Shown: positions 6,001-60,130 of the stretch, one piece after another
Layout of the letters: every line of letters begins with the position of its first letter
Numbering within the stretch: the first letter of the stretch is position 1
NCBI RefSeq assembly: GCF_026151205.1
Contig: NC_087084.1
Location: 720,312 to 784,311 of the forward strand
Length of the DNA: 64,000 bases
Direction: 5' to 3'
Source of the DNA: Bolinopsis microptera
Lineage: Eukaryota > Ctenophora > Tentaculata > Lobata > Bolinopsidae
Program-made: the position numbers and the translations under genes
Notes under the pieces: generated by a model
What the model saw: only the letters and a program-made list of their open reading frames with translations
Database searches by the model: none
Told to the model about the DNA's origin: nothing

Positions 6001-8745
6001 ATAAGGTGATCACCCTGAGAGCGTAGTTACAATAACACAGTACATTATTAAAATAAGGTGATCACCCTGAGAGCGTAGTTACAATAACATAGTACATTAT
6101 TAAAATAAGGTGATCACCCTGAGAGCGTAGTTACAATAACATAGTACATTATTAAAATAAGGTGGGTACCCTGAGAGCGTAGTTACAATAACACAGTACA
6201 TTATTAAAATAAGGTGGGTACCCTGAGAGCGTAGTTACAATAACATAGTACATTATTAAAATAAGGTGATCACCCTGAGAGCGTAGTTACAATAACACAG
6301 TACATTATTAAAATAAGGCGGGTACCCTGAGAGCGTAGTTACAATAACACAGTACATTATTAAAATAAGGTGATCACCCTGAGAGCGTAGTTACAATAAC
6401 ACAGTACATTATTAAAATAAGGTGATCACCCTGAGAGCGTAGTTACAATAACACAGTACATTATTAAAATAAGGTGGGTACCCTGAGAGCGTAGTTACAA
6501 TAACACAGTACATTATTAAAATAAGGCGGGTACCCTGAGAGCGTAGTTACAATAACATAGTACATTATTAAAATAAGGTGATCACCCTGAGAGCGTAGTT
6601 ACAATAACACAGTACATTATTAAAATAAGGTGATCACCCTGAGAGCGTAGTTACAATAACATAGTACATTATTAAAATAAGGTGATCACCCTGAGAGCGT
6701 AGTTACAATAACACAGTACATTATTAAAATAAGGTGATCACCCTGAGAGCGTAGTTACAATAACATAGTACATTATTAAAATAAGGTGATCACCCTGAGA
6801 GCGTAGTTACAATAACATAGTACATTATTAAAATAAGGTGGGTACCCTGAGAGCGTAGTTACAATAACACAGTACATTATTAAAATAAGGTGGGTACCCT
6901 GAGAGCGTAGTTACAATAACATAGTACATTATTAAAATAAGGTGATCACCCTGAGAGCGTAGTTACAATAACACAGTACATTATTAAAATAAGGCGGGTA
7001 CCCTGAGAGCGTAGTTACAATAACACAGTACATTATTAAAATAAGGTGATCACCCTGAGAGCGTAGTTACAATAACACAGTACATTATTAAAATAAGGTG
7101 ATCACCCTGAGAGCGTAGTTACAATAACACAGTACATTATTAAAATAAGGTGGGTACCCTGAGAGCGTAGTTACAATAACACAGTACATTATTAAAATAA
7201 GGCGGGTACCCTGAGAGCGTAGTTACAATAACACAGTACATTATTAAAATAAGGTGATCACCCTGAGAGCGTAGTTACAATAACACAGTACATTATTAAA
7301 ATAAGGTGGGTACCCTGAGAGCGTAGTTACAATAACACAGTACATTATTAAAATAAGGTGGGTACCCTGAGAGCGTAGTTACAATAACACAGTACATTAT
7401 TAAAATAAGGTGATCACCCTGAGAGCGTAGTTACAATAACATAGTACATTATTAAAATAAGGTGATCACCCTGAGAGCGTAGTTACAATAACACAGTACA
7501 TTATTAAAATAAGGTGATCACCCTGAGAGCGTAGTTACAATAACATAGTACATTATTAAAATAAGGTGATCACCCTGAGAGCGTAGTTACAATAACACAG
7601 TACATTATTAAAATAAGGTGATCACCCTGAGAGCGTAGTTACAATAACATAGTACATTATTAAAATAAGGTGATCACCCTGAGAGCGTAGTTACAATAAC
7701 ATAGTACATTATTAAAATAAGGTGATCACCCTGAGAGCGTAGTTACAATAACACAGTACATTATTAAAATAAGGCGGGTACCCTGAGAGCGTAGTTACAA
7801 TAACACAGTACATTATTAAAATAAGGTGGGTACCCTGAGAGCGTAGTTACAATAACACAGTACATTATTAAAATAAGGCGGGTACCCTGAGAGCGTAGTT
7901 ACAATAACACAGTACATTATTAAAATAAGGTGGGTACCCTGAGAGCGTAGTTACAATAACACAGTACATTATTAAAATAAGGTGGGTACCCTGAGAGCGT
8001 AGTTACAATAACATAGTACATTATTAAAATAAGGCGGGTACCCTGAGAGCGTAGTTACAATAACACAGTACATTATTAAAATAAGGTGGGTACCCTGAGA
8101 GCGTAGTTACAATAACACAGTACATTATTAAAATAAGGTGGGTACCCTGAGAGCGTAGTTACAATAACACAGTACATTATTAAAATAAGGCGGGTACCCT
8201 GAGAGCGTAGTTACAATAACACAGTACATTATTAAAATAAGGTGGGTACCCTGAGAGCGTAGTTACAATAACACAGTACATTATTAAAATAAGGTGGGTA
8301 CCCTGAGAGCGTAGTTACAATAACACAGTACATTATTAAAATAAGGCGGGTACCCTGAGAGCGTAGTTACAATAACACAGTACATTATTAAAATAAGGTG
8401 GGTACCCTGAGAGCGTAGTTACAATAACACAGTACATTATTAAAATAAGGTGGGTACCCTGAGAGCGTAGTTACAATAACACAGTACATTATTAAAATAA
8501 GGCGGGTACCCTGAGAGCGTAGTTACAATAACACAGTACATTATTAAAATAAGGTGGGTACCCTGAGAGCGTAGTTACAATAACACAGTACATTATTAAA
8601 ATAAGGTGGGTACCCTGAGAGCGTAGTTACAATAACACAGTACATTATTAAAATAAGGTGGGTACCCTGAGAGCGTAGTTACAATAACACAGTACATTAT
8701 TAAAATAAGGTGGGTACCCTGAGAGCGTAGTTACAATAACACAGT
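1..8745. repeat. 52-bp satellite array, clean copy (left edge, about 168 units)
   Basis: The sequence is a head-to-tail array of a 52-bp unit that starts TAACACAGTACATTATTAAA, continues into AATAAGGTGGGTACCCTGAG and ends AGCGTAGTTACAA. Units differ only by substitutions at a few positions (ACACAG or ACATAG; GGTGGG or GGCGGG; GGGTACC, GATCACC, GTTCACC, GGGCACC or GGGGACC; GCGTAG or GCATAG). There are almost no indels, so the base quality is high. The array runs off the left edge and stops at about 8745, where its last unit merges with a VPS13B exon. On the minus strand each unit reads as the end of that exon followed by intron start. Confidence 0.98.
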
Positions 8746-11700
8746 TTAGTAGTGAGCGAGTGTTGTGCTCCCAGCTTGGTAAGCTGTGAGACCCACAGAG
8801 GGGCGTGCTGGTCCAGGTCAACGCGCGAGCACGTGTAGAACATGCAAACTGGGTGGGTACCGTCTCCCTCTCTGTACGTGGGGTTATTCAATTAGGTAAT
8901 TAGTGGGTTATTCAATCAGGTAATTAGTGGGTTATTCAATTAGGTAATTAATTATTCAATTATGTAATTAGTGGGGTTATACAATTAGGTAATTAGTGGG
9001 TTATTCAATTAGGTAATTAATATTCTTTATTGTAAATAGACGATCAATTTTCATTTTATTCAGGTTGGTGTTCAAGTAAATAAAAACTAATACACTTAAT
9101 AAACAAAATTACCTTTGTTGTGCAGCTGTACAGATGGCTTAAGTGACGTAACAAGAGAAAGAGAAAGAGAAAGTGAAAGTGAAAGTAGCTAACCTAACGT
9201 TGCTCCCTGAGAGATACACAGTAGCACCTAGACACGTAACACTCAGGTGAGACATGACGTGTAGTCGTGTGGTGGAGACAGCACGTTTAGGGTTGGGTTG
9301 GGCGGGCAGACGCTCAAACAGGGCCCACATCGTCTGGGAGAGGTATTATATTATATTTACTTATTTACTTTAGGTAAAATAGCACAAAATGTCTGGAAAT
9401 TCAAAGTTTAACAATTATTACTTTGCAGTCTCGAATGTGAAGGAGACTGAGTGATCGAGGAGCTGAAAGAGAGAAAGAACAAGGAAAGAAAGAGAAAGTG
9501 AAAGAGAAAGAAAAAGCAAACCTTGGAGTTAAAGAAGAGGGAGAGGGAGTTGAGGATGGAGTTATTAAGGAATACAGTAAACTTGTTAGCTACCATTCGT
9601 ATCTCAAACAACTCGGTCTCGTTTCTTTCCAATCTGTCCAATTCGTCCCTGATTTATAGAGATCATTTATTTAATAACTGTAATTTATTTTAATAACTGT
9701 ATAGATTAAAACTTTAAAACTATGTCTTCATCGACCGCCTTCACTATTTTCGCTAATAAAGCATGTACAACCAAACTCTGATTAACCATTTCCTCCAAAC
9801 TTTACGGTAACTCGGGGTTAACCTCACTTAATATTAGCACTATATTGATTATGGTGTGTTGGTGTACAAGATACAAGATATAACGCTGTTTATATTCACC
9901 ACACCATAGTGCAAGAAAATTTCAAGTGAAAGGGATGATAACAATATAGTAAAGGTTGTGTATTTGTACTCACAAAGGGCGCTGTTTGAACTCAGGTATA
10001 ATGTTTAACATACAGAGCCACAGAGCACGGAACTTGGTGAACTTTAGTGTCTCCTCCTCGGTAGCGTGTCTCTTGTCCTGAGTTAACGGAGTTTTCTTTA
10101 ATTAACTTAGTTTTAATTAATTAATAAGTTAATGTAGTTTTCTTTAATTAACTTAGTTTTAATTAATTAATAAGTTAATGTAGTTGTATTTCATTAATTA
10201 ATTACCATATTATTTACACAGATTGTATCACCTCATAGTCTAGTTGAGGCAGCAGGTCGAACAGGGAGCCCTCTGTTAATGTACTCATAGTATCCACCTC
10301 AACATCTCCGAACACAAACATTTGCTCCTTCTGAAACCATTAATCATTATTAACATTGTAAATCAGGGTTTAAAGGTTTAATACCATACTTAAATCAGGG
10401 TTCATGGCATACCAAACTTGTAAAGGGAAAATTAAATTTTGGTTTTCGGTGGTTGGTTTCTGTAAATGGACTAATTTTCTGTTAAAGGGCTGGCAACTCA
10501 TTAAACAACTAAATAACTAACTCATTAAATAACTAACTCATTAACTCATTAAATAACTAAATAACTAAATAACTAACTAAATAACTAACTAACTAACTAA
10601 TTTTCACTAATTAACTAACATGGTGAGAGAGGTTTGCAGTTAAACTACACACTCCCAATGTGAAATGAGAGTAGTAGTATCCCTTAGCAACGCACTCCAT
10701 CGCTAAACCTCGTATCTTCATGTTCAGGAACGGAGTGAACTGGTACTTTGCTGACCTGAGCCACATTTATAATTTAACTAAATATATATATAATATATAA
10801 TATATATATAATAATATAGAGAACATAGTTATTTGCGATAGTTAACCAAGAACACACTGGTTACCCCTAGTAGATTATTAACCGACATTAGGCCATTATA
10901 TTATCAAACCACCAGTACAGTGTTCACTGATGTATATAAAATACAGTTCATTCTCCAAGAATCAAACCTAGAACAACATATTGATCTACACACTGTGACA
11001 TCTTACTATATATAAAGCGAGACGATATATATATATATATATTTGTGCCATTTTACTGACACCACGGCATCAACTTTAACGCGACTTTCCGCAAAAACCG
11101 TAAAAGATATACAACTGAAACTTTTTTGACTGGGTCAAATGCTTTTATGCTTTTCAAATCAGCATGAAAAAATAAAAAATTGGCCAAGGAATAAGAGTTT
11201 TAGAGCCCAAAATTTGGACCCCCAAGTGGTGTCAAAAACGCGAATTAAATAGGTAATAATTATTTTAGTCTCTTGAGTCTTGACACCATTTTAGGGTTAT
11301 ACGGGTTCCTGCTAGTAAAGCTAACCTCTTTCTGCGCTGAGCTAGAACTTGTGTACATGAGATATTGAAACTCTTAACAAAGAGAGAGAAGTTGAAGAGC
11401 ATTTCAGCAGGAGGAGCGGGGGAGACTCCGTAGTCCTCATATGCTGCCATTCCTAGCATACTCCACCCCCAACCAATCCAACCTGGGGACATATAATATA
11501 TCCTTGTGTTTGACTACAGAACACAAAATATATATCATTGTGTAGGACTACAGAACACAAAATATATCATTGTGTTCGACTACACAACACAGAATATATA
11601 TCATTGTGTTTGACTAAATTACATAAAATATATCTGTGTGTTCGACTACACAACACAGAATATATCCTTGTGTTTGACTATTACCTTCCTCGTCAGCTGA

Positions 11701-14280
11701 CATGACGGGAGGGGGAGCAGGGTGGACTACTTGTTTAGTTGTGTCTGAAGAGTTGGTCAGGTAGTACAATCTTCTTAGTAGCACTATCAGGGCAGGGAAC
11801 TGTGGGGGAGCAAGTTATAGTTTCACTAACTATATATAATGTATATATATAATATACATAGTTAGTTATAGTAGTGTTACCTATAGTTACTATATATAAT
11901 ACAGGGTATACAGCAAGTTATAGTTTCACTAACTAAATTATATATATAATATTGTATATATATAATATAGTTACTATATATAGTTCCGGTTGTAAATACT
12001 AGTCATGTTTGTTATTAAGGGGGCCGGGGGGGGGGGGGGTCTTCTTAAGTTAATAAACCAGAGTAATCTACTTGCAGACCTGTTGATCGGAAATGTTGAG
12101 GTTAATATCGTCACACAGAACATGTACGAATATAGCGGAGGGAGAGAAGGAGTAGACGTTAGGGAAGGTGAACAGAGACCTGCAGTTTATGTGCGCTCTG
12201 TAAAGTACTGGCTCTTCGTACACTTCTATTCGACCTGCAAATAGCATACATATAAGATACTGTTATTGGTTACCTTAAATCTGAAATTAAATCTAATATA
12301 AGATACTGTTATTAGTTACTATAGTTACTGTTATTAGTTACCTGACTATGGTTACTATAGTTACTGTTATTAGTTACCTGACTATGGTTACTATAGTTAC
12401 TGTTATTAGTTACCTGACTATGGTTACTATAGTTACTGTTATTAGTTACCTGACTATGGTTACTATAGTTACTGTTATTAGTTACCTGACTATGGTTACT
12501 ATAGTTACTGTTATTAGTTACCTGACTATGGTTACTATAGTTACTGTTATTAGTTACCTGACTATGGTTACCATAGTTACTGTTATTAGTTACCTGACTA
12601 TGGTTACTATAGTTACTGTTATTAGTTACCTGACGCGCTGTTTCTATCCAGACAGATAGTGAGATCTACCAGCTCAATAACTCTTCTCAGAGTCAGTTCA
12701 GGAGACTGTACATCAGAGAAGGCCTGGCTCCACTCAGAGTTTACAGTGTACATACCTGGCGTGTTTTATCTATTTTTATACAATATGTGCATTTGTAACA
12801 ATACATTTTATAATATAATATTGTCATATCATCATGTCTTTACTGAATGTTATTTGTTTATGCCAGCGATTTCAACCATCTGCTTTTATATTTGTTCAAA
12901 CAAATATCAATTTTGTAAGATGAAAAATGTTAGATTATGAAAAAATGTGTCGGAAAACTCACAAGCTGATTTGATGTTGACTGATAGAACAATGTCATCT
13001 TCAATATATTTGAAAATCAGGTTGTTCACGTGAATTTCTACGTTGTTCAGTATCCGCTGCAAAGATAATCTTTCGTTAGCAAAATACAACTTACAGTAAA
13101 ACCATATTCACTGTTTTATTTTCCCCAAATTGTGCACTGAATTAAATACTACATCTCTGTTTATCTACAATTAATTGGTAATACAGTGACACAGCTAAAC
13201 AAGAGTTGTTACCTGAGTGAGAAGCTGCACATAGCTGGGTGCAACAGCTTGTTGTCCGCTAGCATCAGATATACCACTATCTGATTCCTTGTCTTCTTCA
13301 TCTTCTGCTGTACTTGCTGCTTCTAGTTGAGGATGTAATGAGGTTAATGTCTGAACAATTGACATCTTAATGACTCTTTTTATAAAATACATAGATTCTG
13401 TTTAGGTTTATTCAAAGTGTTCAATTTCAATCCAAACCCACATCAAGAAGTAACATTAACATTCAACACATAAGCAGGTAATTGTGCAGCTATAATCAAA
13501 CACCTCTTTTAGTTTCCTCTAGAGGTCTATAAGTCAAGGAACACTCCAAAGTGTTGAGCGTGATAACAACTGAATCAGACCCAAGACTAGTCCAGGGAAT
13601 GTGTATCTTTAGCTCGTGTATCCTACCGCTCAGAAATTTGACTGGGAATAGGAACTCCTGATGTGGCAAAGGAGTTGTTAAGTTGCTCGTAACAGTATTA
13701 TTATATCAGTTTTGTAGAAGCTTAGGGTTGTCTCAATAATATGCAAAAAAACTAGAGACGAGACTCAAGTTATTCTGCATTCATTCACATATAATTTTGA
13801 TAAGCTGAAGATAATTAATAGATCACAATTGGCAAAGAAAATATTAAGAAATTGTATAGCAGTATAATGCACATCCATCATCAACTTATAATTAAGATTG
13901 CAGAATTTAAGATGTTACATTCTGTCACCTGTTCTAAGACGTCAAGTTTGAGCTCCAGATTCTTTAACAACACATCTCCTCCCCAAAGAGACACACCCAG
14001 ATCATTTGGGGAGAGGTTCTGAAACACAAATCATGAGCTGACAAAAAATTATGGAGCAGAAATGTAGTTAAGGAACAAATAAGTTGGTTTTTTTTTCTGT
14101 GTTGACGAGGGATTAACTCATCCTAAAAATTCCTTGCACAAATACTCAATAAGTGAATTTGAACAGTCCTCTGGAAAGAAACAGTTGACGTATCCCTACA
14201 CATTTGGTAGATGTTTGCTAACCTTGATGTACTTGTCCACATAGGACATCAAGAGAGGAGTAATGTACTTCTCCAACATT
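8718..14280 (-). CDS. VPS13B: VPS13B (COH1-like) bridge lipid-transfer protein, N-terminal block, 15 exons
   Basis: VPS13 proteins are very long grooved rods that move phospholipids between membranes at contact sites; VPS13B acts at the Golgi and endosomes. Exons read on the minus strand: 14224-14280, 13929-14018, 13504-13657, 13213-13397, 12963-13056, 12630-12755, 12080-12234, 11685-11799, 11326-11482, 10653-10755, 10232-10330, 9974-10077, 9594-9648, 9228-9333, 8718-8848. The phases chain without a stop and give about 577 residues. The start MLEKYITPLLMSYVDKYIK, then SLWGGDVVLKNLELKLD (exon 2), is the chorein N-terminus. IEDDIVLSVNIKSA (exon 5) and GWIGWGWSM (exon 9) are VPS13B-type rather than VPS13A/C/D-type. 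The family is about 4,000 residues long, so this is a fragment; the continuation is the block at 48-60 kb. The ends of exons 4, 14 and 15 are the least certain. The last exon runs into the 52-bp satellite. Confidence 0.9.
8880..9022. repeat. Intronic AT-rich tandem repeat (about 26 bp, ~6 copies)
   Basis: Imperfect copies of GGTTATTCAATTAGGTAATT follow each other directly upstream (minus sense) of the acceptor of the VPS13B exon at 8718-8848. The repeat lies within the intron and does not include exon sequence. Confidence 0.8.
10091..10190. repeat. 46-bp direct duplication in a VPS13B intron
   Basis: GTTTTCTTTAATTAACTTAG followed by TTTTAATTAATTAATAAG occurs twice, at 10091 and 10137. It lies just upstream (minus sense) of the acceptor of the exon at 9974-10077. 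AT-rich, non-coding. Confidence 0.75.
10497..10617. repeat. Intronic short tandem repeat (ACTAACTCATTAAATA type)
   Basis: Irregular short repeats of CTAACTCATTAAATAACTAA and (ACTA)n lie between the exons at 10232-10330 and 10653-10755. Low complexity; nothing else seen. Confidence 0.7.
11010..11300. repeat. Dispersed interspersed repeat, copy 1
   Basis: The part AAAGCGAGACGATAT ... CCATTTTACTGACACCACGG ... CGCAAAAACCGTAAAA recurs at 51030-51130. The part AAATTTGGACCCCCAAGTGG recurs at 24280-24300. Shared words in unrelated introns indicate an old dispersed element. No coding capacity or terminal repeats were recognised. Confidence 0.6.
11486..11684. repeat. Tandem repeat filling the intron between VPS13B exons 8 and 9
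   Basis: About five diverged copies of a 40-45 bp unit (TTGTGTTTGACTACAGAACA, then CAAAATATATATCA) make up essentially the whole 200-bp intron between the donor at 11684 and the acceptor at 11483. Confidence 0.8.
12309..12634. repeat. 36-bp minisatellite carrying the splice donor of VPS13B exon 6 (about 9 copies)
   Basis: The unit GACTATGGTTACTATAGTTA + CTGTTATTAGTTACCT is repeated with almost no change. On the minus strand every unit contains GTCAG followed by GTAACT, the same exon-end plus donor seen at the real exon 6 boundary (12630). The periodic plus-strand open frame through it (12-residue period) is a by-product of the 36-bp unit and is not called as a gene. Confidence 0.93.
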
Positions 14281-17200: not shown

Positions 17201-18597
17201 TTGGATACAGTCTTGTTTATTTGTTCACCGTGATACAGATCCAAGAAAGTGCGCTAACAAATACATTAAGTACAAATCTTACCATCATCATATGTTGACA
17301 TGCCGTATTTTGGATCTTCTTGGCCCTAAATACAGAATTGCAGTAGTGCCCTGCTTCACATGATGGCCAAAACGAAATTGCTTTAACTCACGTGATGCCT
17401 AAATAAGGTTATAACTTTCTGGTTCCTATCAGCAGTATAATTTATGATTTGATTTACATGAACTTTTGTTAAGAAATATGTAAAGTAATGCTTAAAACCT
17501 GACTTTGTGAACACATCCTGTAACTCAATCAAATCAAGGCTAAACCGATCTCTTCTAGATGCCCAAAGCAGGTTCGATAATGAGTGGCATAATGACAACT
17601 TTAACAGTTTTGGACCATGCTAGATTATTGATAAAAACGTGGAATTTATGTAAACAAATACTTAATTACTTAAATATTGCCGTTTCCGTACGGCGCTATA
17701 CGTAATATATGTTAAAAGCGCGCCGTAGCTACTCCCTACCTCAACATTTGCGCGGGTTTCTTAAGCGCGCACGTACGTTTATTCTTGGCCGTTAATCAGA
17801 CCCATGACATAACGCTATAGGTGGCAGTGACTGTAATTTTCTTCAACAATTACTGAATTATCCATCCATAAAGTGATTTACAAAATGACACCTAAACCTC
17901 GTGTTTCGGTGTTCACTTAAACGGTACTTGGCGGCTGAACTGTGGTGTCTGACGTTTGCAGCTAGATCGGACTCTGCATGATATTGTATTAGCAAATTTG
18001 TATAGTGTATAATTGTTTAGTGTTTATAATACTCTGCAACCTGGTAGCACGGCTGACACAAAAACAAAATGTTGGCCTGGCTTGTGCATAACCAAGTAAA
18101 TAACACGCACTCCGATAAAAGCCGTCTGGAGAAACTCCGCAAAATGTTCATTGTAGTCAACGGGCACAAAGAAGCACTACTAGCAATTGTGTCCTTTACC
18201 CTCCTACATAATTTGAACATTTTTGTGGCTAACTCATTGAACAACATCTGAATTAAAATGTGTCTAGTATTAAAAGATTCAGTAAGTAATTTTTCATGTA
18301 CGCTGTACACTGTAGTTAGTAAATCAAATCAAACTTTTTCGATCAGCCGCGCGCTGAACCAGTGTTGCACTAGGTAAAAATTGTGTATATTTTGTTCATT
18401 TTTTAGCGTAAATTAATTTATTAATTTATCACAAATTATTTTATTATAATATAACCACTTATGTAAATGGTTATTTTGACTTTAAATATTTGAACTAAAT
18501 ATGAATTGATTGTGGGTATAAAATAAAATTTGTTTTACTAAAATTTGTTTTACTAAAAATATCTTACAGCATGTGCTATGAACTGCACTGATTAGAA
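14281..18597. other. Intergenic region between VPS13B and the F-box gene; no gene recognised
   Basis: This 4.3-kb stretch separates two divergent transcription units and must hold their promoters. Open frames of 60-99 codons occur on both strands but have no recognisable domain and lie in AT-rich sequence. Two CpG-rich patches (about 15700-16200 and 17690-17800, with several GCGCGC words) stand out. There is a short direct repeat CACAGCGATC(T/C)GGCTAGATC at about 16036-16073, and an inverted pair AACTCGGCGCGCGT at about 16184 and 16431. It may contain an old unrecognised mobile element. Confidence 0.5.
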
Positions 18598-33474: not shown

Positions 33475-34028
33475 TTTATCAATACAATGTAGTACAATGT
33501 GTACAATGTGTACAATGTGTACAATGCAGTACAATGCAGTACAATGTAGTACAATGTGTACACTGATCTTCTAAATCAGAGAAATATTACCAATTTGTAA
33601 AGCTATTTGATTTCAGTGATTCTTGTCTGCTAGGATAAAAACTTTGATCGGTGTTAAAACAATAAAATTAACTTCTTATTTAAAGAAATTAAGTGATTTA
33701 AGTAATTACGAGATTTAATGAGTTCAACTGAAAATATTCACATTTCTTATTTTGTGTTTTGATATTTTCAACTAAATATATACACAATACACTATAAACA
33801 GTACACTATACACAGTACACTATGTACTATACACTATACACTATACACTATACACTGTACACAGTACACTATACACAGTGCACTATATAATACAGTAAAC
33901 TATACACTATACACAGTACACTATACACAGTACACTATACACATTACACTATACACAGTACACTATACACAGTACACTATACACAGTACACTGTACACTA
34001 TACACACTAAAACAATACACTAAAAAAT
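33475..34028. repeat. GTACAATGT and ACACTATACACAGT microsatellites before the noisy satellite
   Basis: 33475-33565 is (GTACAATGTGTACAATGCA)n. 33780-34020 is (ACACTATACACAGTACACT)n. No exon was seen between 32968 and 34030. Confidence 0.8.
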
Positions 34029-34029
34029 A

Positions 34030-34987: not shown

Positions 34988-35030
<43 letters not shown>

Positions 35031-48320: not shown

Positions 48321-48321
48321 A

Positions 48322-51300
48322 TCTTCAGTTTCTTAGTCAGTAGTAATCCCTCCAGATCGGTACTAGCTGTAATATCTTCTGCTTCTATTTTCAGTGTGTC
48401 GTCCAATGTTACAGAGATCTGAGAACATTCCCTCAAGTTAGAGTTATTTTATAATAATAAGGATGGTAAGATCAGTGCGTATTGGTGAGGTTTAACGAGG
48501 TAAAATAATATTGTTAATTGTGGTTTATTATGTCAAGTGAGGTTTCGCGAGATTAAGCGAGGTTTAGTGAGGATAGGTGAGGTTACTTGAGGTATAAGTG
48601 AGGTATAAGTGAGGTATAAGTGAGGTATAAGTGAGGTATAAATGAGGTATAAGTGAGGTTTCGTGAGATTAAGTGGTGTTACTTGAGGTATAAGTGAGGT
48701 TAAGTGAGGTTACTTGAGTATAGGTGGGTATAATTGGGGTATAAGGGGGGGGGGGGTGTCATGTCCGTCTATGTCCGCCTATGTCCTGTCCTTTTTGGAT
48801 TCTATGAGACAACGGGACGTGTTTTTTTGGACCTTGCGGACACGGACGGACATTGGCGGACTCGGACGGACATTGGCGGACTCGGACGACATTGGCGGAC
48901 TCGGACGGACATTGGCGGACCCGTACGGACATTGCGGTCCCGGACGGACAGTGGCGGACTTGGATGGACATTGGGTGGACATTAGCGGACAAAAATTTTG
49001 AGGACTGAAGAGTACTGAAGAGTACTGAAGAGTACTGAGGAGGATGGCTGAGAAGGATGGCTGAGGAGGATGACTGATCACTGAGGAGGATGACTGAGGA
49101 GGATGACTGAGAGGGAGGAGAAGATCAGGAAGACCCTGGAGGAGGAGGACCCAGAAGGAGGACCTATGAGGAGGAGGAGGAGAACTGAGGAGGATGATCT
49201 AGAGGAGGGAGGAGGACTCAGAGGGAGGAACTGAGAAGGAGGAGGACTGAGGAGGATGGCTGAGGAGATGGCTGAGGGAGGATGACTGAGAGGGAGGAGG
49301 AGAGGAAGAGGGGGAAGAGGACTGAGGAGGAGGAGGGAGAAGGACAGAGGAGGAGAAGGAGGACCCAGAGGGAGGAGGACCCAGGAGGAGGAGGACCCAG
49401 GAAAAGGCCCCAGGAGGATGAGAACTGTTGAGGACTGATGAGGAGGACTGAGGACGATGAGGAGGAGTAGGATGAGGACTGAGAGGGGAGGAGAAGAGAC
49501 TGGGGAAGATCAGGAAGACCCAGAGGACCCAGGAGGAGGAGGTGGACCCAGGAGGAGGAGGAGACTGAGAGGACTGAGAGGGAGGACTGACGATGACTGA
49601 GAAGGAGGAGGACTGAGGAGTACTGAGGAGGAGGACTGAGGAGAACTGAGGAGGAGGAGGAGGAGGAGGAGGACTGAATAGGGAGGAGGAAAGGAGGGGG
49701 ACTGGGAGAGGACTGGGGAGGAGGAGGACTGATGAGAAGGATGAGGAGGAGGACTCAGGAGGAGGACTCAGAGGAGGACTTAGGAGAAATGAGAAGGAGA
49801 CTGAGGAGAACTTAGGAGGGAGGAGGAGGAGGGACTGAATAGGAGGAGGAGAAGAGGGGGACTGGGAGAGGACTGGGGAGGAGGAGGACTGATGAGAAGG
49901 ATGAGGAGGAGGACCCCAGGAGGAGGAGGACTGAGTGACCGAGGAGGAAGATGAAGAGGAGGAGGAGGACCCAGGGAGGAGGAGGGACTGAGGAGGAGGG
50001 ACTGAGGAGGACTGAGGAGATGGCTGAGGAGGATGACTGAGAGGGAACTGGGAAGAGAGGAGGGGACGGAGGAGGAGGAGGAGGACTGAGAGGACTGAGA
50101 AGGAGGGAGGAGGAGGATGAGGACTGAATAGGAGGAGGAGGATGGAGGACTGAGGAGAAGGATGAGGAGGAGGACTGAGGAGACTGAGGACTGAGGAGGA
50201 AGAGGGAGGAGGATGAAGAGGAGGAGGAGGACCCAGGAGGAGGACCCAGGAGGAGACTCAGGAGGAGGAGGAGGACTGGGGAGGAGAAGGACTGTTGACG
50301 ACTGATGAGGAGGACTGAGGACGAGGAGGAGGAGTAGGAGGAGGACTGAGGAGGGGAGGAGGAAGAGGACTGAGGAAGATCAGGAAGACCCAGGGGGAGG
50401 AGGAGGAAGAGTAGGAGGATGAAGCATCTAAATGTTATTTCCATTTTTGGCCGTTATTGTCCATTTTTGTCCGCTCTATTTTTTGTCCGTTTTGAAAATA
50501 TAGGGTACCGAACGGACAAAAACATGATCCCCTATAACAGCAAAAATTGAACATTTTATTTAGCAATTTAGGTGTCCATTAATGTCCGCCTATGTCCGCC
50601 TATGTCCGTCTATGTCCGCCTATGTCCGTCTATGTCCGCCTATGTCCGCCTATGTCCGCCTATGTCCTGTCCTTTTTGGATTCTATGAGACAAGCGGACA
50701 TAGACGGACGTGACACCCCTATAAGTGAGGTTTCACGAGATAAAGTGAGGTATAAGTGAGGTATAAGCGAGGTTTAGTGAGGTATAAGTGAGGTGTACTA
50801 ATAACAGGTGACATCCTACCTTTGGTATAGCGTACTGTAGCCACACGTAAAGGAAAGGTTTAGAGTCCCCCTCATTGTCTGGTATAACACTACCACTATC
50901 AGTATAGTACACTAGATCTGGTAGGTAGGTGTGGATTGAGGAGATCTCAGAGCCTGAGGGGGATATTACAGTGTTAATATCTGGAGGGGGATATAATCTT
51001 AGTACTATATAGTATATACTTATATATATAATAAAGCGAGACGATATTATATATGGATGGATGTGTTTATCCGTACCATTTTACTGACACCACGGCATCA
51101 ACTTTAACGCGACATTCCGCAAAAACCGTAAAATATATAATAGAGGGGTTGTTTATCTAGCGTTAACATTTCACATCACAGCTACTACACATGTTACTAC
51201 ACATGTTACTACACATGTTACTACACGACACATGTTACTACACATGATACTACACATGTTACTACACATGTTACTACACATGTTACTACACATGTTACTA

Positions 51301-54300
51301 CACATGTTACTACACATGTTACTACACATGTTACTACACATGTTACTACACATGTTACTACACATGTTACTACACGTGTTAATACACAAGTTACTACACA
51401 TGTTACTACACATGTTACTAACACATGTTACTACACATGTACTACCATGTTACTACAACATGTTACTACACATGTTACTACTCATGTTACTACACATGTT
51501 ACAAAACATGTTACTTTCCAAAGTTACTACACATGTTAAATAAACATGTTACTAAAACCCCTGTTTACTACACGTGTTTTTCTACACGTGTTACTTAAAA
51601 CATGTTTTCTACACATGTTTCACACATGTTACTACACACAATACACTGCACTAGTTACCTGTGGTAGATACTTGAGTGAGAGGAGTGTCCAGACTACTAG
51701 CCACACTAAACGAGCGTGTAAGGGAGGCCACTACACGTAACACTAGTCTTATCTGCAGTGGTAATCAATTAGTTAATTAGCAAACTAATTGGTTAGTTGA
51801 CTGGGTAATTGCAGTGGTGATTAATCAATTAGTTAATTAGCAAACTAATTGGTTAGTTGACTGGGTAATTGCAGTGTTAATCAATTAGTTAATTAGCAAA
51901 CTAATTGGTTAGTTGACTGGGTAATTGCAGTGTTAATCAATTAGTTAATTAGCAAACTAATTGGTTAGTTGACTGGGTAATTGATTAATGAATACAATAA
52001 TTGTGTTGATGGAATTCGGAGAGATATGAACTGTATTATGAACCTATATAATATGAACCTATACCTGATCCAGATGTACAGCTACTGATATGGGATGGGT
52101 GTCAGCGTGTAAACAAATGTCATTACTTCCTCTGCTGCCCAGAGCTAGTACCACCTGAGAAACATGTCTCTTAATTATTTTAATGTTAATTTAATTAATT
52201 ATTAAGTTATTTTAATGTTAATTACTTGATTAGCAATATTAGAAATATTAGCATCCTTATAAAGATGTATAATTGAAGTTAAAATGACAGATTTTTGATT
52301 GAACATTTTATTTATTCGCTCCAAACCGAGTAATAACTGTACGATATGCAAATTTTCCATCGGTTTATTGATTAATTAACTAATTAGCTAATTAGCTCAC
52401 GTCAAGAGACAGAGGAGCAAGGAGCGGTTGAACAGTGTGGAGACGGTGGTACAGCCAAGTTGCTGAGGGATATCTTCCAGGGTAGAGTTTTTATAATCAG
52501 TAGGATTACCTACTAGTCCACCTGTTGTAGTTACTGATAGGGGTAATTCCCTGGGGAGAAAGGGTTTTATAATCAGTAGGATTACCTACTAGGTCCACCA
52601 GTTGTAGTTACTGATAGGGGTAATTCCTGGGGAGAAAGGGTTTTTATAATCAGTAGGATTACCCACTAGTCCACCAGTTGTAGTTACTGATAGGGGTAAT
52701 TCCTGGGAGAAAGGGTTTATAATCAGTAGGATTACCTACTAGTCCACCTGTTGTAGTTACTGATAGGGGTAATTTCCTGGGGAGAAAGGGTTTTATAATC
52801 AGTAGGATTACCTACTAGTCCACCTGTTGTAGTTACTGATAGGGGTATTCCTGGGGAGAAAGGGTTTTATAATCAGTAGGATTACCTACTAGTCCACCAG
52901 TTGTAGTTACTGATAGGGGAAATTCTGGGGAGAAAGGGTTTTATAATCAGTAGGATTACCCACTAGTCCACCAGTTGTAGTTACTGATAGGGGTAATTCC
53001 TGGGGAGAAAGGGTTTTATAATCAGTAGGATTACCTACTAGTCCACCAGTTGTAGTTACTGATAGGGTTAATTCCTGGGGAGAAAGGGTTATATAATCAG
53101 TAGGATTACCTACTAGTCCACCTGTTGTAGTTACTGATAGGGGTAATTCCCTGGGAGGAAAGGGTTTTTATAATCAGTAGGATTACCCACTAGTCACCAG
53201 TTGTAGTTACTGATAGGGGTAATTCCTGGGGAGAAAGGGTTTTAAAATCAGTAGGATTACCTACTAGTCCACCTGTTGTAGTTACTGATAGGGGGTAATT
53301 CCTGGGGAGAAGGGTTTTATAATCAGTAGGATTACCCACTAGTCCACCTGTTGTAGTTACTGATAGGGGTAATTCCTGGGGAGAGAGGGTTTTATAGTCA
53401 GTAGGATTACCTACTAGTCCACCAGTTGTAGTTACTGATAGGGTAATTCCTGGGGAGAAAGGGTTTTATAATCAGTAGGATTACCTACTAGTCCACCAGT
53501 TGTAGTTACTGATAGGGGTAATTCCTGGGGAGAAAAGGGTTTTATAATCAGTAGGATTACCTACTAGTCCACCGGTTGTATGTTACTGATAGGGGTAATT
53601 CCTGGGGAGATAGGGTTTTTATAATCAGTAAGGGGAGGATTACCCACTAGTCCACCTGTTGTAGTTTACTGATAGGGTAATTCCTGGGGAGAAAGGGTTT
53701 TATAATCAGTAGGATTACCCACTAGTCCACCAGTTGTAGTTACTGATAGGGGTAATTCCTGGGGAGAGAGGCATATTACAGACTTTTAGAGAGTTACTTT
53801 AACTCACTATGAAGTTACTATTACTCACTATAAAGTTACTATAACTCACTACAGAGTTACTATTCCTCACTATAAAGTTACTATTCCTCACTATAAAGTT
53901 ACTATTCCTCACTATAGAGTTACTATTCCTCACTATAGAGTTACTATAACTCACTATAAAGTTACTATTCCTCACTATAAAGTTACTATTCCTCACCTGA
54001 GGGTTGATAAGTCCACAAGTTGTAGTCTGGTTAGTAACGAGTAGAGCAGGTAAGCAGATCAGCACTGCGTCCAGATCCGCGCTGTTCTGCGCGTACTCTA
54101 ACACGTCCCCTTGAGGTGAGCCACACCCTGCTGAGCTGACTAGCAGTACTATTGGGGACACCACCATCTGGAGAGAGGAGGGAGGTTAGTGGGATGTTAG
54201 TGGGGAGGTTAGTTGGGAGGTTAGTGGGGAGGTTAGTGGGGAGGTTAGTGGGGAGGTTAGTGGGGAGGTTAGTGGGGAGGTTAGTGGGGAGGTTAGTGGG

Positions 54301-57300
54301 GAGGTTAGTGGGGAGGTTAGTGGGGAGGTTAGTGGGAGGTTAGTGGGGAGGTTAGTGGGAGGTTAGTGGGGAGGTTAGTGGGGAGGTTAGTGGGGAGGTT
54401 AGTGGGGAGGTTAGTGGGGAGGTTAGTGGGGAGGTTAGTGGGGGAGGTTAGTGGGGGAGGTTAGTGGGGAGGTTAGTGGGGAGGTTAGTGGGGAGGTTAG
54501 TGGGGAGGTTAGTACTCTAACACGTCCCCTTGAGGTGAACCACACCCTGCTGAGCTTATTAGCACTACTATTGGGGACACCACCATCTGGAAGGAGAGAG
54601 GAGGTTAGTGGGGAGGTTAGTGGGGAGGTTAGTGGGGAGGTTAGTGGGGAGGTTAGTGGGGAGGTTAGTGGGGAGGTTAGTGGGGAGGTTAGTGGGGAGG
54701 TTAGTTGGGAGGTTAGTGGGGAGGTTAGTGGGGAGGTTAGTGGGGAGGTTAGTGGGGAGGTTAGTGGGGAGGTTAGTGGGGAGGTTAGTGGGGAGGTTAG
54801 TTGGGAGGTTAGTGGGGAGGTTAGTGGGGAGGTTAGTGGGGAGGTTAGTGGGGAGGTTAGTGGGGAGGTTAGTGGGGAGGTTAGTGGGAGGTTAGTGGGG
54901 AGGTTAGTGGGGAGGTTAGTGGGGAGGTTAGTGGGGAGGTTAGTGGGGAGGTTAGTGGGGAGGTTAGTACTCTAACACGTCTCCTTGAGGTGAGCCACAC
55001 CCTGCTGAGCTTACTAGCAGTACTATTGGGGACACCACCATCTGGAGAGAGGAGGGGAGGTTAGTGGGGATGTTAGTGGGGAGGTTAGTTGGGAGGTTAG
55101 TGGGGAGGTTAGTGGGGAGGTTAGTGGGGAGGTTAGTGGGGAGGTTAGTGGGGAGGTTAGTGGGGAGGTTAGTGGGGAGGTTAGTGGGGAGGTTAGTGGG
55201 GAGGTTAGTGGGGAGGTTAGTGGGGAGGTTAGTGGGGAGGTTAGTACTCTAACACGTCCCCTTGAGGAGAACCACACCCTGCTGAGCTTATTAGCAGTAC
55301 TATTGGGGACACCACCATCTGGGGGGAGAGAGAGGAGTTTAGACTCAACTTTTATCATAAAGTTGAGGGGATCAGAGTTTAGACACAACTTTTATCATAA
55401 AGTTGGAGGTATATACTCCTATATTATAGTATCCTTACCTTCTTATTTTATATTATAAAGCATGTTTTAATTTTACCTGCACAGCAAGATACTCCACTAC
55501 ATGCCACAAACTAGTTACCTGGTTACCTGGTTACCTGGTTACCTGGTTACCTGGTTACCTGGTTAATTTTACCTGCACAGCAAGATACTCCACTACATGC
55601 CACAAACTAGTGCTTTCCACCGAGTCAGTGACACGTGACGAGGAGCCACTAGCTGACACGTCACGTGGTATGACGTCATGTGCTGTGACGTCACGCGGTA
55701 TGACGTCATGTGTTGTGTCGTCATCAGGAGAGTACCGTGTGTCGGGGACTTTATTGTCTGGAAGAGTGGTCATTATACACCTCAGTCCTCAGAAAATGAG
55801 CATGTAGCATGTAACCTCAGTCCTCAGGGGTGTAGTACCTCTGGTCCTCAGTATCATTATAAACATACTCAAACTCTCAACAATTAGAGCAACTAATCTG
55901 TTTAATTAACCTGATGGTGTGGAAGCAGGAGTAGTGAAGTTGTTAGGAGAGGGGCCTGTGGAAGAGGGTGCTGTGGAAGAGGGAGCAGTGGAAGAGGCGG
56001 GTGTAGAGCTAGCTACACTTTCTAGTGAACAAGACCTGAGGTTTATAATTGAGTATCAGTAACCAACTAGTAACCAACTAGTAACCAACTAAGGATGCTA
56101 CTGTTTAAACTAAACTAATTTCAATAAAGTACTTTAAAGATTTTGCATTCGATTTTGAAAATCTTGGACCTCGTTTTTTGATGATTTTTCGAGGTCCACG
56201 ATTTTCAAAATCGAACAAAAAAATTTAAAGGCCTATCTCAAAATTCTGTCGGGCTCATTTCTTCTAAATGATCCCTAGAACATATCCTGAAAGTTTCAGG
56301 GTGATTGCTCAAAGAATGTAGGAGAAGATAGATTTTTAGACTAGATTTTCAGGGCACGCGATCAAAAATCGCTGGCCCAATACAATTACACACACGCGCT
56401 GACCTTTGACCGGCAATAATTTTGGCTAGGAACGATATTTTTCCACGGGATCAAAAGCATCTGATAGATATTACCCCCCTCTATCAGAAACAACTAAAAA
56501 ATCGATTTTGAGACAATTTCCATGAAGACCACCCCCTGGCCCTTAATAATGTTATCGTAGTGTTGAGTAGTGGTGACTACTAAAACCGCTCACCTCACAT
56601 AAGTACCAGAGTTGACAGGGGGCTGATAAGCAAGGAGAGCAGGAAGGGCTTTGTCCCAACATATCACTACACCGCTACTGTGCACTATTAACACTGGCCT
56701 GTCTGATGGGGTCGAACCTGAGCAAAACACAAGGATATATTTTATAAGGGAAAATGTAAAACACAAGGATATATTTTATAAGGGAAAATGTAAAACACAA
56801 GGATATATTTTATAAAGGAAAATGTAAAACACAAGGATATATTTTATAAGGGAAAATGTAAAACACAAGCATATATTTTATAAGGGAAAATGTAAAACAC
56901 AAGGATATATTTTATAAAGGAAAATGTAAAACACAAGGATATATTTTATAAGGGAAAATGTAAAACACAAGCATATATTTTATAAGAAAAATGTAAAACA
57001 CAAGGATATATTTTATAAAGGAAAATGTAAAACACAAGGATATATTTTATGAAGGAAAATGTAAAACACAAGGATATATTTTATAAAGGAAGATCTAAAA
57101 TATCATTGAAACTCTTTAAAACACGCAGATTTTTTACCAACGTAAATTTACGAGACAAGTGCAATTCTTCTTGTAATATGATAAATATTAGAACGGTTAT
57201 GATAAAGTTATAGAACTGGGTACCACGTGTACTTACTGGTGGTAAAGGGAACGTGAGGCCACTGAACAGTAACACTCAATAAACTGGGTACCACGTGTAC

Positions 57301-59960
57301 ATCAGAAGGTTGCTCCAGCGACCTGAACAGTTAGGTGACATAGGTAGGTGATTACTTACTAATTGATAATTCTTTACTTATTAACATCAGTTACTAAATT
57401 TTGTAACCAAATTTTGTAAATTCAAATTTAATCATTAGTTTAGTAGTGATTATATTACCTGTATACATCTTTAGTGAAGTAGGGCCCAGATAAAATGCAT
57501 ACCGCCTCATCCGCTGTAACGAAATAATTGTTAGCACATAATTTAGTTAGCACATAGTTTTATAGTTTAGTTAGTACTTTAGTACAAAGTTCATATCCAT
57601 TGTTCATTCTCGTTGTAGTCTCTGACATTTAAATAATTTATGTTTTGCACTATTATTTTACAGCAGTTATTTGTTAATAAAATAAAAAATAGCGAGAATA
57701 AAATAAATCTGATCAGCTAACCAAAATATAAGCCAATTAAAAATCAATCTATACTAAATACAGGGTGGGCCAAAAGTCAGTGTGCAAACGTTGGCCTTAA
57801 TAGCTCAGTCACTGAGTGCCCAATTGAAATAATTTGTTCTGGTATGACTTACTACCACCACTGGTTCGAGAAATTTGTTTGATAACTTCGTCATTTCTAA
57901 TCCATTCAACATTTAATAATCTACCGTCTCTGAAAAATTAGGCGTCCACCATGTTCAGAGAGAATAAGATAGGTGTTTTAATATTGAATGGGCGTAGTCT
58001 AAAACACTCGAATTTTCAAATTTGGCGACGGAATCCTCGAACAAGTAGGTACAGCAAAGCAACAACTCTCAAATATAAAACACGGCGGAGGTATAAGACA
58101 AACTTTTGCGCACTAACTTTTGCCCCCCGGCCCCCCCCCCCTGTATATTTATCAGGAGATAATAATAATAAATAATTAAACATACTAAATTTGTAGATAA
58201 AGAGCCCCCCCCCCCCCCCGCTGTATATTTATCAGGAGATAATAATAATAAATTATTTAACATACTAGATTTGTAGAGAAAGAGCCCCCCCCCCCTGTAT
58301 ATTTATCAGGAGATAATAATAATAAATAATTAAACATACTAGATTTGTAGAGAAAGAGCCCCCCCCCCCCTGTATATTTATCAGGAGATATTAATAAATA
58401 ATTAAACATACTAGATTTGTAGAGAAAGAGCCCCCCCCCCCCCCTGTATATTTATCAGGAGATAATGATAATAAATAATAACACATACTAGATTTGTAGA
58501 GAAAGAGCCCCCCCCCCGCTGTATATTTATCAGGAGATATTAATAAATAATTAAACATACTAGATTTGTAGAGAAAGAGCCCCCCCCCCCCCTGTATATT
58601 TATCAGGAGATATTAATAAATATTTAAACATACTAGATTTGTAGAGAAAGAGCCCCCCCCCCTGTATATTTATCAGGAGATAATAATAATAAATATTTAA
58701 ACATACTAGATTTGTAGAGAAAGAGCCCCCCCCCCCTGTATATTTATCAGGAGATAATAAATTATTTAACATACTAGATTTGTAGAGAAAGAGCCCCCCC
58801 CCCCCCCCCTGTATATTTATCAGGAGATAATAAATTATTTAACATACTAGATTTGTAGAGAAAGAGCCCCCCCCCCCCCTGTATATTTATCAGGAGATAA
58901 TAAATTATTAAACATACTAGATTTGTAGAGAAAGAGCCCCCCCCCCCCTGTATATTTATCAGGAGATAATAATAACATAATTAAACATACTAGATTTGTA
59001 GAGAAAGAGCCCCCCCCCCCCCCCCCTGTATATTTATCAGGAGATAATAATAATAAATAATTAAACATACTAGCCCCCCCCCCCCCCCCTGTATATTTAT
59101 CAGGAGATAATAATAATAATAAATAATTACTAGATTTGTAGAGAAAGAGCTCAGCGCCCCTGTATATTTATCAGGAGATAATAATAAATAACATACTAGA
59201 TTTGTAGAGAAAGAGCTCAGCGCCGCGCAGTGTCAACATAGCAGAGTTAACTACCGTAGTTTGACAATACTTCATCCCAATGTGCGAAACACACAGTTCT
59301 ACACTCAACTGCTCTTCTGTGATATAATAGTGTTATTAACTAATTAACTAATTAAATAATACCATATTATTAGTATCAAATTAATGGTTGTTTTATTAAG
59401 GGTTCCCTTAAAATCGCGGTTTAAATTTATTTCATTTGAAAATTGACAGCCTCTTAAAAAACCTGCTCCCTTAATCACTTTTTCTTAACTGACATAACCC
59501 TAACCTATATCTAGAGCTTGCTGGGCTAGTGTTCTGAGTGCAGTGTCTAACCTATATCTAGAGCTTGCTGGGCTAGTGTTCTGAGTGCAGTGTCTAACCT
59601 ATATCTAGAGCTTGCTGGGCTAGTGTTCTGAGTGCAGTGCCGTGTAACAACTCCCCCTCCAACACTCCACCACACAGTTTGTTAGTCCAGTAATATAGGA
59701 AGTGATAGGAGAGGTGAACTTGTGGCATTGTCAGCATCACCGTGATCTGGGGCACTTCTAGTCGCACCTCTAATAAACCTTGCATTGTGGAGACCCTGAG
59801 GGAAGTAATAATAATAATAATACTATAGTATACTATATAATACATACTAAGTAGATATTATGGAAGAGGAATTAAAGTGAAAGATAAAGTAGACCCTGAT
59901 AACTGTACGTAAGTTTGTAAGAATGTAGCAGGTAAGACTTTGTGAGGCAGAAGATAAGTG

Positions 59961-59991
<31 letters not shown>

Positions 59992-60130
59992 AAGAGAAAT
60001 TTACAAACCAGCTCAGAGGGTAGCAATACACTTTGATAACAGTTTGTAGGAAGGTAGCAGGTAGAATAACTATACTGGACAAAATCTTCAGGTCTCTTAC
60101 TGAACAGAATCCTGCTGAGTTGTCAGTAAC
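48322..60130 (-). CDS. VPS13B: VPS13B continuation block (about 13 exons), partial at both ends
   Basis: Exons on the minus strand: about 60041-60130, 59599-59795, 57459-57513, 57237-57322, 56594-56717, 55911-56035, 55573-55787, 53997-54167, 52401-52550, 52065-52154, 51659-51752, 50820-50980, about 48322-48418. Most phases chain; the junctions around 52401-52550 and the end of the first exon are unresolved. Segments resemble, in order, human VPS13B after the region where the 8.7-14.3 kb block stops: [14 protein letters not shown], the S/T/P linker [53 protein letters not shown], then [12 protein letters not shown]. This resemblance is from memory of the family, not an alignment. About 550 residues are encoded. 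The exon at 55573-55787 holds a short DVIPRDV repeat. The gene should continue left of 48322, but only noisy repeat follows. Confidence 0.8.
48540..48745. repeat. GTGAGGTATAA 11-bp array, left half
   Basis: Tandem TAAGTGAGGTA units in a VPS13B intron. The same array resumes at 50722-50800, so the segment between looks like an insertion into it. Confidence 0.8.
48746..50721. mobile_element. ~2-kb TIR element with tandem-repeat interior
   Basis: The left end GTGTCATGTCCGTCTATGTC and the right end (complement GTGTCACGTCCGTCTATGTC) are inverted. Both lead into GGATTCTATGAGACAA. TATAA sits at both borders, within the split 11-bp array. The interior holds 20-mers of GGACATTGGCGGACTCGGAC, a 1.4-kb GA-rich tract, and near 50440-50535 an inverted relative of the ATGTTTTTTGTCCATTTTTG element at 27110 and 28315. 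No transposase was recognised. Confidence 0.65.
49000..50425. repeat. GA-rich low-complexity tract (GAGGAGGACTGAGGA type), 1.4 kb
   Basis: Extreme strand asymmetry, almost pure purine on the plus strand with regular ACTGAGGAGGA words. The long Ser/Pro-rich minus frame through it is low-complexity translation, not a gene. Confidence 0.9.
50722..50800. repeat. GTGAGGTATAA 11-bp array, right half
   Basis: Continuation of the array at 48540-48745 on the other side of the inserted element. Confidence 0.75.
51030..51135. repeat. Dispersed interspersed repeat, copy 2
   Basis: Matches 11010-11110 over AAAGCGAGACGATAT, CCATTTTACTGACACCACGG, CATCAACTTTAACGCGAC and CGCAAAAACCGTAAAA. Confidence 0.6.
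51177..51640. repeat. (ACACATGTTACT)n 12-bp array beside a VPS13B donor
   Basis: About 38 units, degenerate at the right. On the minus strand the unit GTAACATGTGTA resembles the first intron bases at the neighbouring donor (GTAACTAGTGCA at 51658), about 20 bp away. Confidence 0.92.
51753..51985. repeat. 58-bp tandem repeat at the acceptor of the VPS13B exon 51659-51752
   Basis: Four copies of AATCAATTAGTTAATTAGCA + AACTAATTGGTTAGTTGACT + GGGTAATTGCAGTG. On the minus strand each carries CACTGCA, the acceptor core; the exon-proximal copy reads CACTGCAG before the exon. Confidence 0.9.
52491..53770. repeat. VPS13B: 76-bp array duplicating the acceptor and 5' part of a VPS13B exon (17 copies)
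   Basis: Each unit on the minus strand contains TTTCTCCCCAG, then about 58 nt of exon (GAATTACCCCTATCAGTAAC ... GATTATAAAA). Only the copy at 52491-52560 continues into the rest of the exon (to 52401). Most copies begin the exon with GAATTA, in phase with the preceding exon; the exon-proximal copy has one extra G. Confidence 0.95.
53787..53996. repeat. 21-bp donor-like array after the VPS13B exon 53997-54167
   Basis: About nine copies, on the minus strand, of GTGAGGAATAGTAACTTTAT. The first is the real donor (CAG followed by GTGAGG), so every unit opens with a donor-like GTGAG. Confidence 0.9.
54100..55335. repeat. VPS13B: Four partial copies of a VPS13B exon separated by 12-bp polypyrimidine arrays
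   Basis: The 5' ~70 nt of the exon at 53997-54167, with its acceptor, recurs at about 54513-54587, 54969-55047 and 55246-55319. Between and after the copies run (GTTAGTGGGGAG)n arrays of about 27, 31 and 15 units. On the minus strand the unit is ACTAACCTCCCC, a CTAAC branch-point-like word plus a pyrimidine tract. Long plus-strand frames rich in Gly, Arg, Leu and Val through the arrays are not genes. Confidence 0.95.
55466..55572. repeat. VPS13B: Duplicated 3' end and donor of the VPS13B exon 55573-55787 plus (GGTTACCT)n
   Basis: The sequence TTTTACCTGCACAGCAAGAT ... CACAAACTAGT is present at 55475-55516 and at the real exon end (55568-55611). An octamer array of GGTTACCT separates the two. 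Confidence 0.92.
56149..56214. repeat. 25-bp inverted repeat hairpin in a VPS13B intron
   Basis: Arms 56149-56173 and 56190-56214 (TCGATTTTGAAAATCTTGGA and complement) pair with one mismatch across a 16-nt loop. The following 300 bp to 56530 is single-copy and unassigned; it may be the end of an unrecognised element. Confidence 0.65.
56724..57090. repeat. 34-bp tandem array before the acceptor of the VPS13B exon 56594-56717
   Basis: About 11 copies of AAAACACAAGGATATATTTT + ATAAGGGAAAATGT. The exon-proximal copy abuts the acceptor (TTTTGCTCAG). Confidence 0.93.
57761..58143. mobile_element. Shorter relative of the 20477-21243 MITE, with a decayed right end
   Basis: Starts CAGGGTGGGCCAAAAGTCAG after TA and shares interior sequence with the element at 20477-21243, including GGTATGACTTACTACCACCA and CACGGCGGAGGTATAAGAC. 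The right terminus is degenerate and dissolves into a C-run, where the next tandem array begins. Confidence 0.82.
58133..59215. repeat. ~74-bp array with poly-C tracts (about 15 units)
   Basis: The unit is a 9-17 nt C run, CTGTATATTTATCAGGAGAT, an AATAAT stretch, ACATACTAGATTTGTAGAGA and AAGAG. The first unit starts at the terminal CCC...CTGTA of the MITE at 57761. It lies in the intron between VPS13B exons 59599-59795 and 57459-57513. Confidence 0.93.
59501..59641. repeat. VPS13B: 47-bp triplication of the 3' end and donor of the VPS13B exon 59599-59795
   Basis: TAACCTATATCTAGAGCTTG + CTGGGCTAGTGTTCTGAGTG occurs at 59501, 59548 and 59595. On the minus strand each is the exon end CTAGATATAG followed by GTTAG. 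Confidence 0.94.
59850..60065. repeat. Diverged duplication of the end of the first exon of the 48-60 kb block, with (GAAAGT)n
   Basis: On the minus strand CTACCTGCTACCTTCCTACA (about 60045-60064) has a diverged copy, CTACATTCTTACAAACTTAC, near 59910-59930. A (TTTCAC)n hexamer run lies between them (59958-59997). Confidence 0.7.

Follow-up and report, generated by a model that had tools for sequence, protein, structure and literature searches.

Why do tandem repeats lie across the splice sites of so many exons in two adjacent genes of the VPS13 family in the ctenophore Bolinopsis microptera? The question is raised by a stretch of 64,000 nucleotides (C13:720312-784311; contig C13 is NC_087084.1), hereafter referred to as the window, whose locus is located 0.72 Mb from the end of this chromosome-scale contig. 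An initial annotation had noticed minisatellites at many exon edges here, and had attributed them to a mutational process that targets transcribed exon edges and belongs to no described system. We found that the duplication of splice junctions is real and recurs on another chromosome, in a kinesin gene on C12. The evidence does not support targeting of splice sites, and array edges that lie near junctions are the one signal left unexplained. Ordinary minisatellite turnover near chromosome ends, tolerated since the exon-proximal splice site stays usable, is the explanation that we regard as probable.

We modelled the exons of the window in three blocks (13, 16 and 13 exons), with edges set from open frames, GT/AG dinucleotides and Pfam matches only. 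The 5' model of VPS13 (A/C type; 20152-32968, plus strand; 13 exons, E1-E13; 551 amino acids) is an open frame with GT/AG edges and matches Pfam VPS13_N at 1e-105, and the VPS13B-like 5' model (8718-14279, minus strand; exons A1-A16; 538 amino acids) matches the same domain at 1.2e-55, with a frame that is unbroken over A1-A14 only. The third block, called VPS13B-mid (48322-59795, minus strand; 13 exons), has good exon frames, though the frame is problematic both at 52550 and at the donor 52401, and its proteins (403 and 147 amino acids) gave no Pfam match above the cut-off. Among the gene names of the initial annotation, those of the two 5' models are backed by VPS13_N, and the label VPS13B for 48322-59795 follows from position alone.

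Splice sites inside tandem-repeat units

Each junction named by the initial annotation (14 in all: 10 donors, including 48322, and 4 acceptors) was checked by local alignment to its own neighbourhood within the window, which yielded 10 firm second copies, one conditional case (8718), two marginal ones (E8 and 48322) and one array that abuts its exon (51752). The firm copies include exonic bases, which bears out the claim that the tandem units do carry splice sites. At these junctions, as at those of the kinesin gene described below, the unit consists of exon sequence, a splice site and intron sequence, as in the minisatellite at an exon-intron boundary of human CBS.

Among the donors of VPS13, that of E4 (exon end 21917) lies in two 54-bp units (21914-22017, plus strand; Tandem Repeats Finder (TRF) and alignment), and its copy comprises 4 exonic and 46 intronic nucleotides (49/50 identical). 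The end of E7 occurs twice with its donor (23994-24049 and 24118-24167, spanning 23994-24167 on the plus strand; alignment), with sequence of a 31-bp family between the two copies, which share 38 exonic and 18 intronic nucleotides (49/50, one gap). Four units of 126-145 bp cover the donor of E12 (exon end 31654; 31614-32098, plus strand; TRF and alignment); the aligned copy holds 41 exonic and 60 intronic nucleotides (101/101, one gap), three further copies are present, and the frame stays open across three units. Two 84-bp units span the donor of E13 (exon end 32968; 32936-33057, plus strand; alignment), where the copy is made of 33 exonic and 5 intronic nucleotides (38/38). On the minus strand, the donor of A6 (exon end 12630) is contained in 8.9 units of 36 bp (12315-12634; TRF and alignment; 5 exonic and 60 intronic nucleotides, 63/65), and the 59599 donor in three units of 47 bp (59500-59639; TRF and alignment; 38 exonic and 52 intronic nucleotides, 90/90). 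The exon end and donor at 55573 are present in two copies with an 8-bp array between them (55467-55611, minus strand; 39 exonic and 10 intronic nucleotides, 49/49). The donor at 59197, absent from the earlier list, is covered by 15 units of 73 bp according to TRF (58131-59216, minus strand; also found by alignment), with 28 exonic nucleotides in the copy (67/67, 3 gaps).

The same holds for acceptors. The start of E3 (21420) is spanned by two 64-bp units (21300-21429, plus strand; TRF and alignment; 60/60), with 10 exonic nucleotides by TRF and 4 in the alignment, which was truncated at that point. An acceptor with its exon start occurs four times (54167, 54586, 55041 and 55318) within 12-bp arrays at 54093-55325 on the minus strand, the copy of the 54167 junction containing 75 exonic nucleotides (133/135, two gaps). 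The 52550 acceptor lies in 17 units of 75 bp, or 25 codons each (52489-53771, minus strand), with 62 exonic nucleotides in its copy (118/120, four gaps).

The remaining cases are weaker. The first unit of a 52-bp array at 1-8745 (minus strand) contains the putative end of exon A16 at 8718, and the donor copy there has 28 exonic nucleotides (88/88); the case is conditional because this exon end is not secured by frame, and the junction may instead coincide with the array edge. The E8 donor shares 1 exonic nucleotide with its copy (13/13 in total), and the 48322 donor shares 8 (24/26) inside a stretch with 12% indels. At the 51752 acceptor no crossing was found, the 56-bp array (51754-51983, minus strand) ending 1 nt short of the exon. 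A 21-bp array (53792-53996, minus strand) likewise has its start at the first base of the intron that follows the 53997 donor, and a 31-bp array (22307-22384, plus strand) begins 4 nt into intron 5. A stricter copy test requiring 8 exonic nucleotides was set aside, as it overlooks copies with few exonic bases or with indels.

The units at the crossed junctions vary in both sequence and length, and from their letters they mostly look unrelated, in agreement with one part of the initial annotation. Its addition that they are not a family of elements is doubtful, because two units have relatives elsewhere. In searches that covered 264.65 Mb in 232 contigs, the 31-bp unit, which stands beside E5 and inside the E7 duplication, belongs to a dispersed family with many relatives on many chromosomes (up to 98% identity), and the 36-bp unit has many relatives at 67-78% identity. 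At E7, dispersed repeat DNA appears to have been inserted, with some 50 bp of the exon end plus its donor duplicated on either side of it. The 52-bp unit forms arrays at 1-8745, 34024-47499 and 60959-64000 that extend leftward to at least C13:714495; an exact 32-mer of it occurs 323 times in the genome, always on one and the same strand, and 150 of these occurrences fall in the window; all matches listed are on C13. Introner-like mobile introns place one element at many sites. Here the crossing units vary among themselves, and the 31-bp and 36-bp units have dispersed relatives that might form introns.

Unit numbers in a second copy of the locus

A VPS13_N profile search revealed that the locus exists a second time, 64-76 kb away (C13:797.8-798.4 kb and 816.4-817.8 kb); there the distance between the two genes exceeds that in the window by about 12 kb. 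Unit numbers for this second copy were judged from alignment geometry alone, and they differ from those of the window at all 6 junctions tested. The second copy has one unit against two at E4 and at E7, where both window copies map to a single place and the insert is absent, and one against four at E12, where 500 bp of array match 153 bp. It carries more units at E13 (about 7 against 2, with five further 90-bp steps) and in the 36-bp array at A6 (about 18.7 against 8.9). The weakest of these comparisons is E3 (one against two), where the aligned part of the second copy begins with unit 2, the upstream intron is unaligned and 40 of 1235 candidate matches were scored. Identity over the aligned stretches is 96-99% for two of the queries, 89-93% for a third and 80-93% for a fourth. 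Heterozygosity in the ctenophore Hormiphora is given as about 3.2% overall (PMC8527503); the second copy could be the allele of a very heterozygous animal or a tandem paralogue.

One part of the window is of doubtful assembly. The 52-bp and 85-bp arrays at 34024-48324, to which no strand was assigned, are rich in errors (11-12% indels between units), whereas the other two 52-bp arrays have 97% matches and 0% indels. The published assembly is described as gap-closed with TGS-Gapcloser (PMC10232365), and the window's gene order (VPS13B-5', VPS13-5', VPS13B-mid) does not form one gene. It is probable that 34024-48324 is a gap fill joining one locus copy to the middle of another.

The locus contains several other features. 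A single-exon F-box gene (18595-19239, plus strand; Pfam F-box-like, 2.9e-8) lies between the two VPS13 genes. Intron 2 of VPS13 holds an element of about 770 bp with inverted ends CAGGGTGGGCCAAAAGTCAGTGTGCAAACG (20477-21250), one end of which (about 50 bp) has at least 38 matches on many contigs among the matches listed; at this element the intron seems much shorter in the second locus copy. Three tRNA genes of about 115 bp were recognized by an Rfam tRNA match (26683-26797 and 27959-28073, plus strand; 28824-28938, minus strand), although an ARAGORN scan found no tRNA; they probably contain introns, and are located in a repeated, partly inverted unit that shows by eye a second tRNA-like sequence about 230 bp upstream. 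In addition, an intron of the minus-strand block contains a purine-rich GAG/GGA repeat of about 1.2 kb (49138-50419).

Control genes, chromosome ends and array placement

For comparison we used myosin (73) and kinesin (109) exon matches in the same genome, and read 14 of the gene regions concerned (8 myosin, 6 kinesin). Homology with GT/AG edges placed 68 introns, of which 64 were kept and 4 dropped for low score; 17 exon pairs were skipped for profile gaps or overlaps that were too large. No tandem array crossed any of the 128 junctions in these regions, and a single acceptor (C12:14.83 Mb) is copied close by, outside any crossing array. In a kinesin gene at C12:14.43 Mb (L065), 0.77 Mb from the C12 end and chosen later for its closeness to the contig end, 2 of the 8 modelled junctions lie inside large arrays: a donor in 52 copies of a 33-bp unit (which includes 26 nt of conserved coding sequence plus GTAAGT), and an acceptor in 112 copies of a 26-bp unit that contains it. 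The earlier claim of a recurrent pattern with many different units is thus upheld.

We further compared repeat fractions among the 14 gene regions, 7 small C1 loci, L065 and the window, with L013 and L014 on C11 left out and contig ends taken as chromosome ends. The three loci less than 1 Mb from a contig end have fractions of 0.43, 0.54 and 0.74, compared with a mean of 0.068 in the 20 others (Mann-Whitney, p = 0.005). The window locus thus combines a position near the end with raised repeat density, as in a subtelomeric minisatellite cluster. As a side observation on the controls, two myosin exon matches in a row (C3:9154012-9154485), both on the same profile stretch (105-167 and 102-167), may represent a duplicated exon.

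To the claim that exon edges are targeted we applied a null model in which each array is moved to a random position within or next to its own intron, overhanging by at most one unit. Crossing arrays showed no excess in the window (7 observed vs 8.1 expected), in the three near-end loci (9 vs 9.8) or in 59 introns of interior genes (0 vs 1.3). Two other expectations were abandoned: a null with arrays confined inside introns makes crossings impossible, and an estimate from unit length over full intron length (4.8 vs 7 observed in the window, p 0.19) was superseded by the overhang null. In the window genes, locally duplicated 20-mers with four exonic bases were found at 4 of 39 donors and 2 of 39 acceptors, compared with 0.32 of all intron 20-mers, and in the 64 introns of other genes at 0/64 and 1/64 junctions, compared with 0.114 over introns; 20-mer duplication climbs inward from the exon edge, with no peak at the junction. 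With crossings as frequent as under random placement and duplication rarer at junctions than across introns, the proposed targeting of exon edges finds no support.

A genome-wide test with the donor word CAGGTAAGT gave 474 close pairs in 2462 occurrences (at least 12 loci among the matches listed). Set against 0 pairs for the same word read backwards, this had looked decisive for targeting, and was given up because the rate is near that of words of the same composition (0.83 word-loci per 100 occurrences in interior genes, 0.83-1.4 over four sample parts), with no clear enrichment. An unrelated control word also pairs (117 close pairs, at least 6 loci among the matches listed), its reverse forming 5 pairs (single occurrences uncounted), and the backward CAGGTAAGT may be unusually low as a control.

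Turnover and its alternatives

These results suggest that minisatellite turnover near chromosome ends is the probable origin of the pattern. In such DNA, short tandem duplications would arise frequently, perhaps by slippage or break repair, and would gain or lose units as minisatellites do. The founding segments, about 20-145 bp long, would land anywhere in or beside introns, and a segment straddling an exon edge by chance would duplicate the splice site too. Tolerance of such an event may come from the outermost original site, which keeps its place beside the exon (among donors the copy farthest 5', among acceptors the one farthest 3') and would presumably be the one used; surplus exon pieces would turn into intron, leaving the array free to expand in a presumably neutral way.

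Several observations weigh against this account. An interior 3-kb locus has a repeat fraction of 0.51, which shows that high density is not confined to ends, and the near-end sample consists of three loci, one of which (L065) was picked for its end location. The absence of close pairs in 1212 occurrences of the backward CAGGTAAGT is below what turnover predicts. Array edges 0-10 nt inside an intron are too numerous in the window (9 vs 2.8 expected), as are edges 0-10 nt from a junction in the near-end loci (12 vs 3.5) and in interior genes (3 vs 0.8). Donor-like words also recur within array units: six 7-mers gave 10 word-by-array hits in 165 arrays compared with 3.3 after shuffling (p 0.02), 6 compared with 2.2 without the window (p 0.05) and 5 compared with 2.0 without the window and L065 (p 0.08), and the best donor score per unit exceeds that of reversed units (p 0.0007; 168 arrays, with the 52-bp unit counted three times). 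Some near-junction edges are by eye pyrimidine-rich tracts before acceptors and others are not; the donor itself is the starting point of an array at 53996, and likewise in the kinesin gene located at C12:14.83 Mb.

The excess of near-junction edges and the donor-like words would be compatible with arrays arising preferentially at junctions. Junctions might be hot spots at which repeats are born, with donor and intron words such as GGAGGT and AGGTAA serving as microhomology, or with co-transcriptional DNA structures forming at exon edges; the lack of pairs for the backward donor word and the E4 duplication, which by eye lies between two GGAGGT words, fit this idea as well. We nevertheless consider it unlikely, given that crossings show no excess, that duplication is lower at junctions than across introns, that genome-wide pairing of CAGGTAAGT is near the sample average and that an unrelated word pairs too. 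Similarly limited credence attaches to a variant in which junctions, donors above all, are the preferred edges of newborn arrays, the donor motif supplies short homology for the first duplication, and amplification near chromosome ends then leads to recurrent intron growth.

Selection on the junction copies, by which tandem donors or acceptors would provide alternative in-frame inserts or buffer splicing, could draw on the open frame of three E12 units and on the 25-codon unit at 52550, and summary accounts report that CBS arrays can accompany altered enzyme activity or splicing. It appears very unlikely, as many units have lengths not divisible by 3 (64, 47 and 52 bp) and every tested junction differs in unit number between the locus copies. 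Slightly less probable still is that error-prone gap filling and uncollapsed haplotypes created much of the pattern. The error-rich 34024-48324, the nearby second copy and the reported gap closing would fit such an artefact, but most crossing arrays have units 92-100% alike (87% at 58131-59216), the firm junction copies are 97-100% identical in alignment, and the pattern is also present at the kinesin locus, which is on another chromosome. Turnover near chromosome ends therefore remains the explanation that we favour.

Relation to known splice-site minisatellites

The statement that no such system has been described is wrong for single cases, judging from summary-level accounts of these. According to two reviews, human CBS has a 31-bp variable number tandem repeat (VNTR) at the exon 13-intron 13 boundary with variable copy number. 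Like the arrays described here, it is a minisatellite at an exon-intron edge, but as reviewed it concerns one locus in one gene; the present arrays affect about a dozen junctions spread over two neighbouring genes, plus two junctions of a kinesin gene. The CBS variant 844ins68, in which an insertion of 68 bp is described as doubling the acceptor of intron 7, resembles the 64-bp duplication at the E3 acceptor, although it is portrayed as a single polymorphic two-copy event and not an array. In human segmental-duplication genes, internal tandem repeats at exon-intron boundaries are reported to vary between gene copies, with 27 intron modifications (De Grassi and Ciccarelli 2009, PMC2812944). Those repeats are said to make novel introns and alternative transcripts in recent paralogues, whereas the present case, known from DNA alone, concerns existing introns that seem to grow. 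Tandem duplication over an intron-exon boundary has also been put forward, in outline, as a route of intron gain that re-uses inherited splice signals (PMC4974935); the likeness lies in the duplication across the edge, and the outcome given there is a new intron. Human minisatellites cluster in subtelomeres, and the density contrast here comes from only 3 near-end loci and 20 others. In literature on ctenophore genomes, tandem repeats and splice-site minisatellites, searched mostly at the level of titles and abstracts and mostly outside subscription papers, we found no report of a comparable cluster.

We thus regard the locus as a real, recurrent and locally dense case of splice-site-spanning minisatellites, of which single human examples are already known. 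If this reading is true, gene models and assemblies in such repeat-rich regions would have to be considered unreliable. Splice-site-spanning minisatellites could then be common among genes that lie near the ends of ctenophore chromosomes, and the unit number of such arrays could differ between two copies of a locus. Moreover, such loci would offer a natural experiment, in which up to dozens of serial donors or acceptors beside one exon would test how the spliceosome chooses among identical sites.

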